Assembly (NCBI RefSeq): GCF_002197845.1
Contig: NZ_NIDE01000008.1
Coordinates: 124,001 to 188,000, forward strand
DNA length: 64,000 bases
From: Fimbriiglobus ruber
Lineage (GTDB): Bacteria; Planctomycetota; Planctomycetia; Gemmatales; Gemmataceae
Direction: 5' to 3'
Within the stretch, counting starts at the first letter, position 1. The number at the start of each line of letters is the position of its first letter. Shown here one piece after another: positions 1,860 through 41,531 of this stretch. Made by a program: the position numbers and the translations under genes. Below the pieces are notes generated by a model. The model was given only the letters and a program-made list of their open reading frames with translations, was not told the DNA's origin and did no database searches.

Positions 1860-4800
1860 ATGTCTAGTTTGACGGACTTATCGATCGGGGAAGTGTCTTG
1901 CCGCGCGACCGTGGGCACGATCTGGCAACTTCGTCGGATGAATCGACCGGTCGACCACCTGACCCGCGGGCTGTCCCTCTCCCTCGACGATTTGAGTACG
2001 CCGTCCGCGTCGATCCGGTGGGACGACTTCCGCCAATTTTTCCGCAACGCGACCGCCGGCCTTCCGCGGGCCGAATTCGTCGAACTGTCTTCGTCATTCT
2101 GCGTGGAGGCCGCCCCCGCTCTGGCGGCGACCGGGGCGTGGTCGCCCGCGCGCTACTTCGCGCGGGCCGCCGGGAACCGGTGTCGTCTCTTGCGGCAACT
2201 CTTCCGGTGCCTGGACACCTCGGTCGCCCGGCCGTCGTCCGCCGAAGTCGTGATCGAGGTGTGGCCGCGCCCCGGGTTCGCCGCCCCCGGCGACACCTTC
2301 TGGGAGTGCCTCGCCGTCGGGTTCGGGGCGCTGGCCCGGAGTTTGGGATTGCCCGCGGCCGACGTCGCGCGCGAGCCGTCCGACCTCGGCGCCCGGTTCC
2401 GGGTCCGGCTGCCTCATCACCCGATCAGTTTCCTGCTGACGTGGCTCGCGGCGCAGTTCGGTCGCGAGTCCGCGCGAGTCCCGTCGAGTACACCCGCCCC
2501 CGGTCTCGAACAGAGCCCCCCCGCGGAGGGCGGGTCCACCGAACACGCGGGCCGCGGGAGCGAGGACCGGCGCCAGACGGTCGCCGAAGACATCATGGAC
2601 ACGACGATCGTCGCCTTTGCCCGCGACGCCCGCTTGCGGGCCGAAGGGTTTTCGGGAGCCGTGCGGAACGACCGCGCCGCGGGCCGGCCCGCGGCCAAAG
2701 TCGCGATCCTCGACCGCGACTGCCGGTGGACGCACATGAACCCGGCCCTGGCGGCTATCAGCGGGCACCCGCCCGACACCCACATCGGGAAAAAACCGAA
2801 CGACTTATTCACCCCCGATCTGGCCGCCGTGATCGAGGCGGGCGCGAAAAAAGTCATGGAGACCGGCGAGGCAAACTGCACGCACGATTCGCGCGGGCGA
2901 GCCCCGACTGCCCCAGACTCCGCTCGGCACTGGCAGTTCACCCACTTCCCGATCCCCGACGCGGCCGGGCAGGTGGGCGGGATCGGCGTTACGGTGGTCA
3001 CGGTGCCCCCGCCGGAATCCGCCGGGCAGTTGCCTCGCGCCGGGAGTGACGAGACCGCCGAAGTGGCCGACGCCGTTGCCCTCACCGACGGCGACGGCCG
3101 GTTGGTCTCGGCGAGCCCGGCGTTTCTCCGGATGTGGCGGTACGACCGCGAGGACGAGGTCCGCGGGCGGGCGTACACGGAGTTTTGGGACCGGCCCGAT
3201 CTGGCGGCCGAGACCGCCCGGGCCGCATTTCGGGACGAGACCTGGGCCGGCGAACTGACCGCCGTCCGGCGGGACGGCGGTCGGTTCGAGGCCCGGGTGT
3301 CGCATTCGCTGGTCCGGGACCCCTTCGGCCGCCCGGCCGGTCTAACGAGTTCGATCCGCGACGCGACGAACCGGACCCCGGCGGGCGCGATGCCGCCCGC
3401 GGAGGTCTCGGGGGCGGCCGACGGAAACTGGATGTGGGACTTCGGGACGAACCAAATGTGGTGGTCGGCGGGGGTCTACCGGCTGTTCGTCGCCAACCCC
3501 GGCCCCTCCCCGTTCCCCGTAGAAAAGTTCCGGTACCTGGTTCAGCCGAACGAATGGGAGTCGGTGCAGGCCCAGGTCGCCGGCGTGGTGGCCGGGAGCG
3601 ACCGGTACGAGCACCTGATCCAGATCCTTCGGCCCGACGGACAAACCCGGTGGATTATGGTCGCGGGCCGACCCGTCCGCGACGCGGACCGCCGGGTGAT
3701 CCGGTTGGACGGGACGGTCCAAGACGTCACGGAGCAAAAGAAACTGGAGGCCCAGCGCCTCCAGTCCCAGAAGATGGAGGCGCTGGGCCTCTTGGCGGGC
3801 GGGGTGGCCCACGACTTCAACAACCTGCTCACCGTCATCAACGGGTACGCGGAACTGCTCCTGGCCAGTTCACCCGAAGAGAACCCGGACCGCGAGGCGG
3901 TGACGGCGATCCGGGAGGCCGGGGACCGGGCCGCCCGCCTGACCCAGCAGATCCTTCTCTTCAGTCGCCGGGCGCCGCTGGAGACGAAGTTCCTCGATCT
4001 GAACAACCTGCTCAACGTGTCGGTCAAACTGCTCCGGCGCCTGATCGAGGAGGACATCGTTCTGTCCTTGCACCTCGACCCCACCCTGGCCCGGATTCAA
4101 ATGGACCCGGGGTTGCTCGAACAGGTGATCATGAACCTGGTCGTCAACGCCCGCGACGCCATGCCGACGGGCGGCGACCTGACGATCGAAACCCGCAACG
4201 CCACGGTCGACGAGAAAGACACGTCTCCCACGTCCGACGTGCGGCCGGGCAAGTACGTCCGGCTCACGGTGTCGGACAGCGGCTGCGGGATGTCGAGCGA
4301 AGTGAAGGCCAAGATCTTCGAGCCGTTCTTCACGACCAAGGAGGGGGTCGGGACCGGGCTCGGCCTCACGGTCGTGTTCGGCGCGGTCAAACAGTCCGGC
4401 GGGCACATGAGTTTCGACAGCCAGGTCGGGGTCGGAACGCGGGTGACACTCCTGTTCCCCGTCGCCCCGGACGTCACGCCCGAGCCGCCGTCCGAGCAGT
4501 CGCGGATCGCGTCCGGGGGGACCGAAACGGTACTCCTGGTCGAAGACGAGGACGCGGTGCGGCGGGTCGCGTCGATTTCCCTGAAATCGATGGGGTATTC
4601 GGTCCTGGAAGCGGGCGGTAGTATGGACGCGGTGCGGCTCGTCCGCGAATACCGCGGCCCGATTTCCTTACTGGTGACGGACGTGGTGATGCCGGAAATG
4701 GGCGGCCGTCAACTGGCCGAATTAATCCGCGCACGGCACCCCGGTCTGCCGGTCTTATATCTGAGCGGACACACGGAGGACGTCGTACTCCGGCACGGGG

Positions 4801-8636: not shown

Positions 8637-9591
8637 ATGCCGACCACCGTGCCCGACCTCAAAGAGCGTTTCGAGGGCTCGCTCCTCGGTCTCGCGATCG
8701 GGGACGCCCTCGACGGTGGCGAACCGGGCGCAGACCGCGGACGCGATCCGCGCCCGGTTCGCCACCGTCGAGGCCCTGATCGCCTACCCGCAAGACGAGA
8801 TCTGGTACACGGACGACACGCAGATGGCGATCGGCGTGGCCGAGACGCTCGTCGAACACGGCCGGATCGTCGAGGACGCGCTCTGCCGGGCGTTCGTGGC
8901 GAATTACGTCTCGTCCCGCGGGTACGCCCGCGGGGCGCGGATGGTTTTGAACGCGATGGAGGAGGGTCGTGATTACCGCCGGTTGGCGGAGGAGTATTTC
9001 CCCGGAGGGTCGTTCGGCAACGGGGCCGCTATGCGGGTCGCGCCCGTCGGCCTGCTGTTTCGCGACGACTACCGGCGGTTGAAGGCGGAGGCGCGGGCGC
9101 AATCCACCCCGACGCACACGCACCCACTGGGAATCGAAGGGGCACACCTGCTCGCACTGGCGGTCGCACTTTGCACGCAGGTAGCTGCCTTCGACCGCGT
9201 TGCGTTTTTCGCGGAACTCGTCGCCGCGTGTGAGTCGGCGGAGTTTCGCGACCAAATCCGGCTCGCGGAGCAATCAAGGACGGTGGCGGACCTGGCGGCG
9301 TTGGGCAACCAGATCACGGCGCTTCACTCCGTGCCCACCGCGATCGCCAGTTTCGCACTGACGCCCGAGTCGTTCGCCGAGACCATCGGCAACGTCATCC
9401 TCCTGGGCGGCGATACCGACACGCTCGCGGCGATGGCGGGGGCGCTGTCTGGGGCGTACCTTGGGGCGAGCCGACTGCCGCCACGGTTGGTGCTGTTGTT
9501 GGAAGCCAGTCCCAAAGGGGGAGCGTATCTGGTGAAACTGGCACACGCGTTATTTGATCGATACGAGCAGACGCCGCGCTTTCCCGGTTGA
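8637..9591 (+). pseudogene. ADP-ribosylglycohydrolase family protein, interrupted by a frameshift near its N-terminus
   Basis: The family's N-terminal motif (LKERFEGSLLGLAIGDAL) is encoded in one frame from the ATG at 8637. The rest is in the next frame (TADAIRARFATVEALIAYP, then WYTDDTQMAIGVAETL, and near the C-terminus ILLGGDTDTLAAMAGAL). Family members normally read GDALG-(about 6 residues)-Q straight into the next segment; here 19 rather than 18 nucleotides separate them, so one base is in excess. A GTG at 8716 could start a shortened 291-residue product, but this would lack the GDALG metal/substrate motif. The metal-binding YTDDTQM and GGDTD motifs are intact. These enzymes remove ADP-ribose from proteins or small molecules. 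The frameshift coincides with a perfect inverted repeat (see separate entry), so this may be a recent mutation or an assembly artefact. Confidence 0.8.
8708..8773. repeat. Perfect 24-bp inverted repeat inside the ADP-ribosylglycohydrolase gene
   Basis: Bases 8708-8731 are the exact reverse complement of 8750-8773, with an 18-base spacer. The right arm encodes the normal family sequence (ARFATVE). The left arm replaces the expected family sequence after GDAL and introduces the frameshift. The left arm is therefore the derived copy. Confidence 0.9.
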
Positions 9592-16848: not shown

Positions 16849-16899
16849 GCCTGCCGCATCCCGCCCCGACTCAAGGAGTCGGGGCGGGATGCGGCAGGC
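16849..16899. terminator. Perfect 24-bp hairpin between convergent genes
   Basis: Bases 16849-16872 pair perfectly with 16876-16899 around the three-base loop aag. It lies four bases after the stop of the leftward dioxygenase gene and 134 bases after the ATP-grasp stop, a position that suits a bidirectional terminator. There is no T-run, and the stem is far longer than usual, so it may also be a dispersed palindromic element. Confidence 0.7.
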
Positions 16900-21295: not shown

Positions 21296-21403
21296 GTCTC
21301 GGGTTCCCGGTGAGTGAAGGCGGCGGGTGACGAACCGCCCGCTGATTGGGCCATTCTACGAACGTGTGTCCGTTGTTACCGCCCCCAGTTCTGTGCCGTG
21401 GTC

Positions 21404-21473
21404 GGCGTAGGGCGCGCTATTGCGTGCCGTCTCTCCGGGGGGAAAAGCGGCACGCAATAACGTGCCTTACGCC
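21404..21473. repeat. Imperfect 26-bp inverted repeat upstream of ndh, overlapping the end of the next gene
   Basis: Bases 21404-21429 pair with 21448-21473 at 23 of 26 positions, with a perfect 12-bp inner core (21418-21429 with 21448-21459). The right arm covers the last seven bases of the GT87-like gene, including its stop codon. A third copy of the core (gattgcgtgccgttccgg) lies at about 21486-21503 inside that gene. It may be a terminator for the GT87 operon or the remnant of a small palindromic element. Confidence 0.65.
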
Positions 21474-22693
21474 GAGCCTTGTCCCGATTGCGTGCCGTTC
21501 CGGAGAAGGGCCATGACGGCGAAATACCAGAGGATTACGGCCGGGGTGAGCCAGATCGGGTCGTGCAAATACACGACGACTGCCGCGTATTGGAAAATGA
21601 CAAGATGCCCGGCGATGGCCGCCAGCAGCGGGATTGCCCGACCGGCTCGGGCCGCCCGGGCAAACACCGCCGTGACGGGCACGAGCAGCACGACGAGGTC
21701 GAAGATCCACCCGCCGTACGGGGCGACGAGGGCCGACACGAGGACCAACCGCGGCGTCTCCGCCGACCAGTCCCACGTCTTCCGGCGAGCCCACCAGTAC
21801 GGCACGAGGAGCCCGCACGCGACGGCGCAGGGCACGAACTGACTCCAGAACGGCTTACCGTTGACGGGATCGATCCGCCAGCGGAGTTCGTAGCTCAAGA
21901 GCGGGAGTTGCCACTCGGTCACGGCCTGCGCTTCGGCGGACGGGGGCCGCGTCAGCGCGGCCGCGAACTGCCGGAAGACTTCCGAGTTCGGCAGCAGCGC
22001 GAGCAAGCTGAGAACGACGAGCATCACGGCCCCGCCGAGGAGAACCCGCCGGCCGGCCCGCGTGGTCGCGTCGAGCAGGATGGCCAATCCGAACAGGGCG
22101 AGGAGGTGTGGCTTGATCGCGGTCAGGGCACCGACCGCGCCGGCCGCGAGCAGATAGCCGCGCTGGCGGAGGTACAGGAAGCCGGCCAGGCCGACGAGGA
22201 TGAAGCCGACGTTCTGCCCGTATTCCAGCAGCCACCGGGCTTCCGCCGTGGTACCCAGGACGGCGAAGGGGGCGGCAACCCAAAGTCTCCGGAGGCCCGG
22301 ACCCGCCGGTCCGCCGTACACCAGCCACAATAGCCACGCGGAGGCCAGCAGACAGGCGATCTGAAGCCACAACCAGGCCTCGTGCGCCGGTCGGGGGTCG
22401 AGAAGACCGAACGGGACGTACAGCGGGAGCGTCCAGGGCGGCGTCCAGAGCATGACCGCCTCGGTCCGCTCCGGTTCGCCGGCCGCCTCGCGCTGGAGCG
22501 GTAAGAGGTGCGCCCCGTCGTACGGGTTGCCGCCGCGGACCTCGACCCGGGCCGCCGACCAGTATTCCACGAAGTCTTTCGGGGCGAACCCGAGCGACGA
22601 CCGCCTGGCACGTTCCCGCGAAGTGCCCGACTCCGCCCCCACGCACAGCGATCCGACAACGACCAGTAGGGCGACCGCCTGGAACCGCCTCAC
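21467..22693 (-). CDS. GT87-like (DUF2029) membrane glycosyltransferase, second copy
   Basis: A 408-residue polytopic membrane protein of the GT87/DUF2029 type, which uses polyprenyl-phosphate sugar donors outside the membrane. Visible features: an N-terminal helix (FQAVALLVVVGSLCVG); a periplasmic loop with DFVEYWSAARVEVRGGNPYD (the acidic catalytic region); TPPWTLPLYVPFGLL; then multiple helices, including GALTAIKPHLLALFGLAILL; and the WWARRKTWDW segment. A GTG at 22693 overlapping the upstream stop (GTGA) is the likely start, giving translational coupling to the paralogue. The open frame continues upstream to 22768 inside that gene. The two proteins share ALTAIKPHLLALFGLA and WWARRKTWD and are tandem duplicates. 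Confidence 0.82.
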   Translation of the reverse strand: MRRFQAVALLVVVGSLCVGAESGTSRERARRSSLGFAPKDFVEYWSAARVEVRGGNPYDGAHLLPLQREAAGEPERTEAVMLWTPPWTLPLYVPFGLLDPRPAHEAWLWLQIACLLASAWLLWLVYGGPAGPGLRRLWVAAPFAVLGTTAEARWLLEYGQNVGFILVGLAGFLYLRQRGYLLAAGAVGALTAIKPHLLALFGLAILLDATTRAGRRVLLGGAVMLVVLSLLALLPNSEVFRQFAAALTRPPSAEAQAVTEWQLPLLSYELRWRIDPVNGKPFWSQFVPCAVACGLLVPYWWARRKTWDWSAETPRLVLVSALVAPYGGWIFDLVVLLVPVTAVFARAARAGRAIPLLAAIAGHLVIFQYAAVVVYLHDPIWLTPAVILWYFAVMALLRNGTQSGQGSA

Positions 22694-25594: not shown

Positions 25595-25616
25595 AACTGT
25601 GAAGTTACCAAAAATA

Positions 25617-25774
25617 AGTCATCAAGTCTTCAGGTCATCAAGTCTTCAAGTCGAGAGCCCCGACCCGTACGACCGCCCGAATCGCGCACAATCGGCCGTC
25701 ATCCGTCAGGTCTTTCGGCTTTCGGTTTTAAACTTGAAGACTTGAAGACTTGATGACCTGAAGACTTGATGACT
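25617..25774. repeat. Inverted-repeat element of octanucleotide units (copy 1)
   Basis: Two perfect 36-bp arms (25617-25652 and 25739-25774) are separated by 86 bases. Each arm is made of four 8-base units of the form RGTCNTCA plus a terminal AGTC. One additional degenerate unit sits inside the right arm. The element fills most of the divergent promoter space between cca and the O-antigen-ligase-like gene. A second copy lies at 32778-32908. Confidence 0.9.
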
Positions 25775-27151: not shown

Positions 27152-27255
27152 GCCGCAGATTCACGCAGATGAACGCGGATCAGAACAAAGATCAGGAAAT
27201 CAAATTCTTGTTTTATCTCTGTTCTGATCCGCGTTCATCTGCGTGAATCTGCGGC
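27152..27255. repeat. Inverted-repeat element of decanucleotide units
   Basis: Arms of 41 bases (27152-27192 and 27215-27255) are complementary at 40 of 41 positions, with a 22-base spacer. The arm consists of roughly 10-base units (cgcagattca, cgcagatgaa, cgcggatcag). It begins eight bases after the ligase-like gene and ends 22 bases before the next gene on the same strand. It could form a strong transcript hairpin. Confidence 0.9.
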
Positions 27256-27277: not shown

Positions 27278-28771
27278 ATGGCGAATGACTCCGTAGGCCG
27301 TGTGGACACGTCTTGGGATTGGGCGGGGTGGGCGGTGGTTGTCGTCGCCGTGGTGTTGGCGGTCGTCGGCGCCGGGGACCACGCCGGCGCGTGGAACGAC
27401 GGCAGCCGGCTCGCGGCCGTCGAATCGCTCGTCGACCGCGGCACCTTCGCGATCGACGACTCGATTTACGTCCGCGTCCCGCCAACAGTTGACGGTATGC
27501 CCAGGCCGTATGCCGACACGCCACCCGCGCTCAACATCACAGGCACGCTCGATAAACTCCTCATCGACGGCCGTTTCTACTCGGACAAGACGCCGGTGCT
27601 TTCCGTGCTGATGGCCGGCCTGTACCGCGTGTGGCTCGCGGCGGGCGGACCACACGCCGCCGAACGGCCGGACCTGTTTTGCTGGTTTCTGACGCTCGCG
27701 ACATCCGGGCTGGCCTACGTCCTGGCCGTCGCCTGTGTGGTTCGACTCGGCCGCGTCCTTGGGCTGACAGGGGGCATCGGCGCCGCGTTTCCGGCGGCGT
27801 TCGCCTTCGCCACGTTCGCCGCCGTATACTCTCGTGTGGTGAACAGCCACGTGGTCCTGCTCGCCGTCGCGGCCGGGCTCTGTCTGGCGTTAGCGCGAGC
27901 GACACGTGACGGCGTGACGGAATGGGATCGCTGGGGGCGGCCGGTGGTGATCGGGTTGCTCGCCGGGTTTGCTTACGCGATCGACTTCGGGCTCGCGCCG
28001 GGGTTCGTGCTAGGCACGCTGGGCTACTGCATCGCGACGTACCGTCGCACGCTGCCGGTGGCCCTGGTCGTACTCGGGATGCTGCCTTGGGTGGTGGCGC
28101 ATCACGCCCTCAATTATGCGGTTGGCGGCACTTTCGTCCCGGCGAACGCGGTCCCGCAATACCTTCAGTGGCCTTCGGTGAACGGGCTGCCCGGCAGCCC
28201 GTTCACCGAAGGGATCATGACGGGCGGGCTGAAACATTCGCCAGCGGGCTTCGTGCTGTACGCGGCCGACATGCTGTTCGGCAAAAAAGGCTTCTTCCTG
28301 CACAACCTGCCGTTGTTACTCGTACCGGGCGGGGCGTGCCTCCTCTGGTTGAGGCGGAAGCCGGACCGTGCGGCCGTCGGATTTGCGCTGGCGGTTTGCG
28401 GGTTGGGCTGGCTGGCCTACGCAGCGAACTCGACGAATCTTTCCGGCCAGTGCTGTTCGGTCCGGTGGTTCGTTCCGTTCCTCGCCCCGGAGTTTTGGAT
28501 CGTCGGTCTGGTACTCCGCCATTTCCCGCGATACAGGCCGGATTTGTTGTGGCTCACGCTTTGTGGAACGGGCGAGGGCATCCTGATGTTCTGGGCCGGA
28601 CCGTGGACGCCGTGGATGGTGCCCGGGTACTGGGGATGGGTGGCGGTGGCACTCGTCGGGTGGGGCGTCGTGCGCTATCGAAATCGAGAACGCAAGACAT
28701 GCGAAACGGCTGACGAAGAGAGCGCACACGGTATGACTCAGGTAGGCGCCGGAAGCCATCCGGCACCTTGA
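27278..28771 (+). CDS. Polytopic membrane protein, GT-C glycosyltransferase-like
   Basis: A 497-residue protein with about ten transmembrane helices. The first helix (WAVVVVAVVLAVVGAGD) is followed by a long periplasmic loop with NDGSRLAAVESLVDRGTFAI and YSDKTPVLSVLMAGLYRVWL, a layout similar to GT39-type (PMT/ArnT) enzymes, in which an acidic residue in the first loop is catalytic. Hydrophobic segments then alternate through FAFATFAAVYSRVVNSHVVL and others. The family was not confirmed. It is likely a membrane transferase or transporter that works with the glycan genes. The C-terminal 30 residues are charged and low in conservation. It is convergent with mutS2; a short hairpin (28748-28764) near the end may help termination. 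Confidence 0.65.
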   Translation: MANDSVGRVDTSWDWAGWAVVVVAVVLAVVGAGDHAGAWNDGSRLAAVESLVDRGTFAIDDSIYVRVPPTVDGMPRPYADTPPALNITGTLDKLLIDGRFYSDKTPVLSVLMAGLYRVWLAAGGPHAAERPDLFCWFLTLATSGLAYVLAVACVVRLGRVLGLTGGIGAAFPAAFAFATFAAVYSRVVNSHVVLLAVAAGLCLALARATRDGVTEWDRWGRPVVIGLLAGFAYAIDFGLAPGFVLGTLGYCIATYRRTLPVALVVLGMLPWVVAHHALNYAVGGTFVPANAVPQYLQWPSVNGLPGSPFTEGIMTGGLKHSPAGFVLYAADMLFGKKGFFLHNLPLLLVPGGACLLWLRRKPDRAAVGFALAVCGLGWLAYAANSTNLSGQCCSVRWFVPFLAPEFWIVGLVLRHFPRYRPDLLWLTLCGTGEGILMFWAGPWTPWMVPGYWGWVAVALVGWGVVRYRNRERKTCETADEESAHGMTQVGAGSHPAP

Positions 28772-32767: not shown

Positions 32768-32777
32768 CGGGGGAAAA

Positions 32778-32908
32778 AGTCATCAAGTCGTCAGGTCGTC
32801 AAGTCGTCAAGTCGGAAGACCTGGCGGGTGACAATTCGCGCGATGTGGTCAGTGAACGGGCTCGGGTTTTCCGACTTGATGACTTGACGACCTGACGACC
32901 TGATGACT
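32778..32908. repeat. Inverted-repeat element of octanucleotide units (copy 2)
   Basis: Arms of 39 bases (32778-32816 and 32870-32908) are complementary at 37 of 39 positions around a 53-base spacer. The same RGTCNTCA unit repeated four times plus AGTC occurs as in the element at 25617-25774. It begins 11 bases after the thiO stop and lies 149 bases before the next gene. Confidence 0.9.
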
Positions 32909-33057
32909 TCGAGTCGGAAGACTTTCGGTTTCCGGGCAAATTTCCTCCGCGGATTTGACGAAGATCATTGGTAAAACGAAGGCTGGCCGCAGACTCACGC
33001 CCCGTAACCCTACCCCCGCCAATCGGATTGGCTCGTTCTGAATCTTTCGAGGCACCG

Positions 33058-41356: not shown

Positions 41357-41465
41357 TGCGGGGAAGCGAGAGAAGTCCCGAATGGTGGGTGGTAGCAACC
41401 GCAAGGGCGAGTGGCTCGGCTTGCCCGAAATATCTGGAAGCTTGGCTCGATCTGTCCGCAGTAAT

Positions 41466-41498
41466 GAAGCGGGCGGGTCCGATGGACCCGCCCGCTTC
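41466..41498. terminator. Bidirectional hairpin terminator
   Basis: A perfect 15-bp stem (41466-41480 with 41484-41498) with loop gat. It lies 109 bases after the TPR gene stop and 33 bases from the stop of the convergent pseudopilin gene, so it can serve both. Confidence 0.8.
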
Positions 41499-41531
41499 GT
41501 TGCTGTGAATTACTCTCTCGGTTGCCGAAGT

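Follow-up and report, generated by a model that had tools for sequence, protein, structure and literature searches.

Why does a gene for an ADP-ribosylglycohydrolase in Fimbriiglobus ruber change reading frame inside a perfect inverted repeat? The gene lies near the start of the window, the whole stretch of 64,000 nucleotides that was analysed, and the parts of this gene, like the palindromes at 28172 and 3747 described below, are given on its forward strand (+). Positions 8716-9588 match the ADP-ribosylglycohydrolase family PF03747 (E 6.1e-49, 167.7 bits against a curated cut-off of 26.2). The N-terminal part of the gene, 8637-8711, is read in frame 0 from an ATG to the codons of a GDAL motif (8700-8711), which was recognised by comparison with relatives. 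The ORF from this ATG continues out of frame past GDAL and ends at 8972, and the remainder of the gene, 8731-9591, is in frame +1 and open up to its stop. Between the two parts is a new segment, 8712-8730. It is 19 nt long, against 18 nt in the three closest orthologues, and with it the [FY]E motif is lost and the frame shifts. A sequence-only reading of this DNA had put the change at one base, 19 nt in place of about 18, and the frames on either side together with the orthologues gave the same count.

The gene keeps the TDDT and GGDTDT motifs of the sequence family that it shares with ARH3 and DraG, but it differs from these in its split frame and in the loss of the [FY]E segment after GDAL. 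Relatives in PF03747 are read in one frame with a Glu after GDAL; here that Glu is lost and the frame is shifted. In alignment, the lost Glu falls on a Glu of ARH3 chains (three ARH alignments listed, among 21 solved sequences matched), and we take its role to be catalytic. Judged by its sequence, the gene appears to be broken by a backward copy of the adjoining sequence, and the cell would then have lost this enzyme. The genome has five further matches to the PF03747 family, among them an intact paralogue, L002.

The left arm of the inverted repeat, 8708-8731, is the perfect reverse complement of the right arm, 8750-8773, just as the sequence-only reading had described it. That reading had also called the right arm normal family sequence, which it is: it encodes RARFATVEA, ordinary PF03747 coding sequence, and it is the probable source of the copy. 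The spacer, 8732-8749, contains an imperfect inner stem with two mismatches (8732/8749 and 8735/8746). Once these are tolerated, the arms extend to 8708-8739 and 8742-8773, which is 32 nt at 94% with a 2-nt centre. An outer 10-bp stem is predicted between 8694-8703 and 8774-8783. The single-strand DNA fold of 8694-8783, outer stem included, is predicted at -49.1 kcal/mol (z -9.75 against 200 shuffles).

Simulated sequence was used to judge arms of this length. A first-order Markov simulation (one run, 1.664 Mb of genome) gave perfect arms of 13 nt or less throughout. In ten codon-shuffled copies of 1,315 ORFs (1.83 Mb) the longest arm was at most 17 nt, and the shuffled sets held a mean of 0.2 arms of at least 16 nt. 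The codon null underestimates short arms (13.3 expected and 31 observed at 12 nt; 4.7 expected and 14 observed at 13 nt), so it serves as a rough yardstick.

Comparison with relatives had been set beforehand as the test of the claim. Twenty-two relatives were aligned: 19 loci from other genomes, L037 and L039 (of 80 loci listed) and the genome's own paralogue L002. The palindrome is absent from them, and all 22 are intact one-frame genes, with [FY]E[AG] shortly after a [GA]D[AGS] motif. The longest perfect inverted repeat in the matching region is 5-8 nt in the eight relatives measured, and an old palindrome shared by descent was rejected on this evidence. The three closest orthologues are 73% (L199), 69% (L201) and 67% (L200) identical, and two genomes of the same genus gave no match at E 1e-60. 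The unmutated state is thus seen as one that lacks the palindrome and has the source arm, at a distance of 73% for the nearest relative and with no close sister. At that distance the ancestral sequence can be read in outline, not base by base.

The new segment is the reverse complement of nearby sequence, as a template switch would make it, and the left arm matches the reversed 8750-8773 at 24/24 bases. Read forwards, with one inserted base optimally placed, the segment agrees with the three orthologues at 7, 10 and 9 of 18 positions, and the flanks (63 and 45 nt) are 56-69% identical to the same orthologues. For L200 the forward match of 10/18 (56%) is near the level of the L200 flanks (60-67%). 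The weight of the argument therefore falls mostly on the reverse match, together with the altered length. Had a single-base indel error added the extra base, the perfect 24-nt match would probably have been lost, and for this reason the 19-nt length would fit a copying event. What the sequences show directly is that the left arm copies the right arm in reverse and is absent in the relatives.

The main new element of the analysis is a second putative reverse-copy case, this time in frame, which seems to have left its gene readable. It is 19 kb from the first event, in an intact 497-aa ORF (27278-28771) with no Pfam match. The left arm, 28172-28191, and the right arm, 28193-28212, are perfect over 20 nt with a 1-nt spacer. 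The right arm encodes the family sequence PGSPFTEG, and at the left arm there is a six-residue gap in 24/24 relatives aligned, these being the relatives for which a locus was returned (52 of 95 genomes matched, with further matches that came without loci). The insertion is 18 nt long and in frame, and can be placed at 28171-28175 by the protein sequence. It is the reverse complement of its right-hand neighbour and has the same polarity as the event at 8708.

The best explanation for 8708-8773 is one short fold-back mutation in this lineage, of the template-switch or quasipalindrome type, and we consider it probable. The template-switch signature that was claimed from the sequence draws support from the 24/24 reverse match, the length change and the relatives without the palindrome. 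The second event, which kept the frame and shares the polarity of the first, supports it as well. In the proposed event, the bottom strand would be copied leftwards through the gene, and the growing end would fold back near 8740. The folded end would copy its own fresh 8750-8773 sequence in place of the template, and would then rejoin the template where a few bases match, probably at the CCTC of 8708-8711. The outcome would be the change from 18 nt to 19 nt, the removal of the [FY]E segment and the shifted frame. We infer the strand, the hairpin intermediate and the return point. Possible switch-point features, namely CCTC at the return point and the imperfect inner and outer stems, are those of the present-day sequence, the orthologues being too distant for the ancestral state. 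The predicted inner and outer stems could seed a fold-back and were counted for a template switch; the two mismatches of the inner stem and its very small loop were counted against it. GC skew is mostly near zero with outliers, and replication direction is not readable from it.

A census was used to place these palindromes in the genome. It covered 120 stretches of 20 kb and the window, 2.464 Mb of 12.36 Mb on four contigs. Perfect arms of at least 16 nt with a spacer up to 60 nt occur 185 times in the 2.464 Mb, 56 of them single-copy within the sample, and long hairpins as such are common in the genome. Among ORFs, 22 palindromes score at least 16 (mismatches allowed, spacer up to 40 nt), compared with 0.17 per codon-shuffled set (six sets). 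A palindrome was counted as inside a gene when it had an ORF of at least 150 codons and coding signal on both sides. Only 28172 and 3747 among the 22 have one-frame coding signal on both sides. In the frame-change scan of 1.664 Mb, where 144 palindromes were listed, 8708 alone has coding signal in different frames on its two sides; nine have it in one frame, and the palindrome at 28172 was missed at the scan threshold. The other ORF-borne arms lie at the end of an ORF or where coding signal is weak, as judged by codon score without annotation.

The third palindrome, 3747-3791, is doubtful. It has 17-nt arms and an 11-nt spacer, and lies in the conserved QKMEA region of a histidine-kinase-like ORF. 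No length change at its arms was found in 19 homologues from other genomes. The ORF has an Arg where 19/19 of these homologues have a hydrophobic residue, which is suggestive, and of its five homologues within the genome one (L266) aligns differently just upstream. As another copying event the palindrome was set aside: an insertion was not seen relative to the relatives, and it may be a coincidence.

Within the 2.46 Mb sampled, the palindromes that score at least 16 and lie well inside ORFs by codon scores are only 8708, 28172 and the doubtful 3747, and all three are in the window. The window was picked for 8708, so that two further cases remain, in 2.6% of the sampled sequence. This cluster is suggestive, as a post hoc observation, and could also come from a local artefact.

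Other hairpins of the window were noted alongside. A single-copy hairpin at 16849-16899, whose perfect arms of 24 nt enclose a 3-nt loop, is outside coding signal and is possibly a terminator. Imperfect hairpins are found at 21402-21475 (35-nt arms, 83%) and 41459-41505 (22-nt arms, 91%). Those at 27152-27255, 25616-25774 and 32777-32909 resemble multi-copy families of the genome (GCCGCAGAT..., AAGTCATCAAGTC...) and are MITE-like. Elsewhere in the genome, an identical perfect 30-nt palindrome occurs in each of two ORFs, in frame, and the two ORFs belong to different contigs (L177:19456-19485 and L185:18192-18221).

The rival that survives best is a sequencing or assembly artefact, in which a library-preparation fold-back or a misread GC-rich hairpin entered the consensus and the gene is intact in the organism. 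We regard this as unlikely, but as deserving weight. The normal conservation downstream of the event would be expected of an intact gene, and the concentration in one window of the palindromes placeable inside genes also fits an artefact. Against this, entry into the consensus needs presence in most reads, and the normal gene is left and rejoined on both sides, with two internal mismatches retained. The second event is in frame within an otherwise intact ORF, though one third of chance insertions would be in frame. The sequence-only reading had warned that a chimeric read or hairpin artefact could give the same picture; that caution stands, and its force is weakened by the second in-frame event of the same kind.

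A further rival accepts the mutation as real and holds that the gene still works, through an internal start (e.g. GTG 8716) or a ribosomal frame change. The ORF 8716-9591 runs uninterrupted for 291 codons and is conserved, which favours this reading. Yet the internal start falls within the predicted hairpin, and the product would be without the N-terminal segment or without the Glu kept in 22/22 relatives, and the reading seems to us distinctly improbable. Selection downstream was also compared. dN/dS is 0.13-0.14 against the three orthologues and 0.08-0.17 among the orthologues, with dS saturated (1.40-2.74 for computable pairs; three pairs not computable). Two of 62 otherwise invariant positions are changed, a number that L199, L202 and L215 also reach and that none of the 23 sequences exceeds. 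Relaxed selection beyond the event was not seen by dN/dS with its saturated dS or at the 62 invariant positions of the 23 sequences. The normal downstream conservation means that the event is recent, or that a product is still made, or that the assembly is wrong.

An inserted mobile palindromic element, like MITEs or Rickettsia palindromic elements, would suit a genome with several multi-copy hairpin families, but the right arm belongs to the coding sequence of the family and the length differs by a net one base. A search of the genome with 8680-8800 (40 of 167 first-look candidates scored) listed the site, its reverse complement and no dispersed copies, so this explanation was rejected as exceedingly improbable. 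A chance or convergent palindrome within normal coding sequence, which gains a little from short arms in ORFs that exceed a too strict codon-shuffle null, was rejected with equal firmness on the simulations, where no shuffled or Markov arm passed 17 or 13 nt, and on the relatives, which differ at 8708 in length and frame.

Fold-back template switching, the preferred reading of the event at 8708, is a mechanism that is already known, and the locus is a clean natural, well-readable example of it. PMC7202029 describes quasipalindrome-associated template switching in E. coli, at a thyA hotspot and in lacZ reporters, in which one arm is overwritten by a reverse copy of its partner. Common to these quasipalindromes and 8708 are an inverted repeat made more perfect and a frameshift outcome; in the reporters as described there, a 4-bp difference was corrected in an 18-bp quasipalindrome, whereas at 8708 about 19 nt would have been replaced in a presumed imperfect palindrome. 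Judging by the predicted inner and outer stems, an imperfect palindrome like those in E. coli may have preceded the event.

Similar events have also been described in other settings. In the cases outlined in PMC8794818, template switches made RNA hairpins by placing a reverse-complement copy beside its source in one event, with a new stem, as here, but in RNA genes and not in bacterial protein genes. In the yeast coding genes treated in part of PMC8604942, inverted-repeat arms were made alike in one event, as here; the yeast outcomes are neighbouring substitutions and spacer inversions, and the outcomes here are a shifted frame at 8708 and, at 28172, 18 nt inserted in frame. Perfect inverted repeats within protein genes are also reported for the mitochondria of Nematomorpha, with template switching proposed as their origin, in a likeness to the present case. 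The portion of PMC6649704 that covers them gives 110 palindromes of at least 15 bp in four genomes, both arms coding conserved residues, whereas here there are two or three in-gene palindromes, one of them gene-breaking. No survey of in-gene palindromes in bacterial protein genes was found among the open-licence literature matches listed.

It is conceivable, though doubtful, that fold-back template switching is unusually frequent in this stretch of chromosome or in this lineage. It would both disrupt genes, as at 8708, and lengthen proteins by in-frame segments, as at 28172, and deep in-gene palindromes would then be readable scars of one bacterial mutational process. A simple screen is suggested by these cases, in which palindromes well inside genes are compared with relatives. 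Template-switch mutations have so far come from reporters and eukaryote comparisons, and here, in a natural bacterial gene, both ends of the event and the copy source can be read. Beside the second, in-frame case, the event at 8708 indicates that about 20 bases can be rewritten together by a single copying slip.
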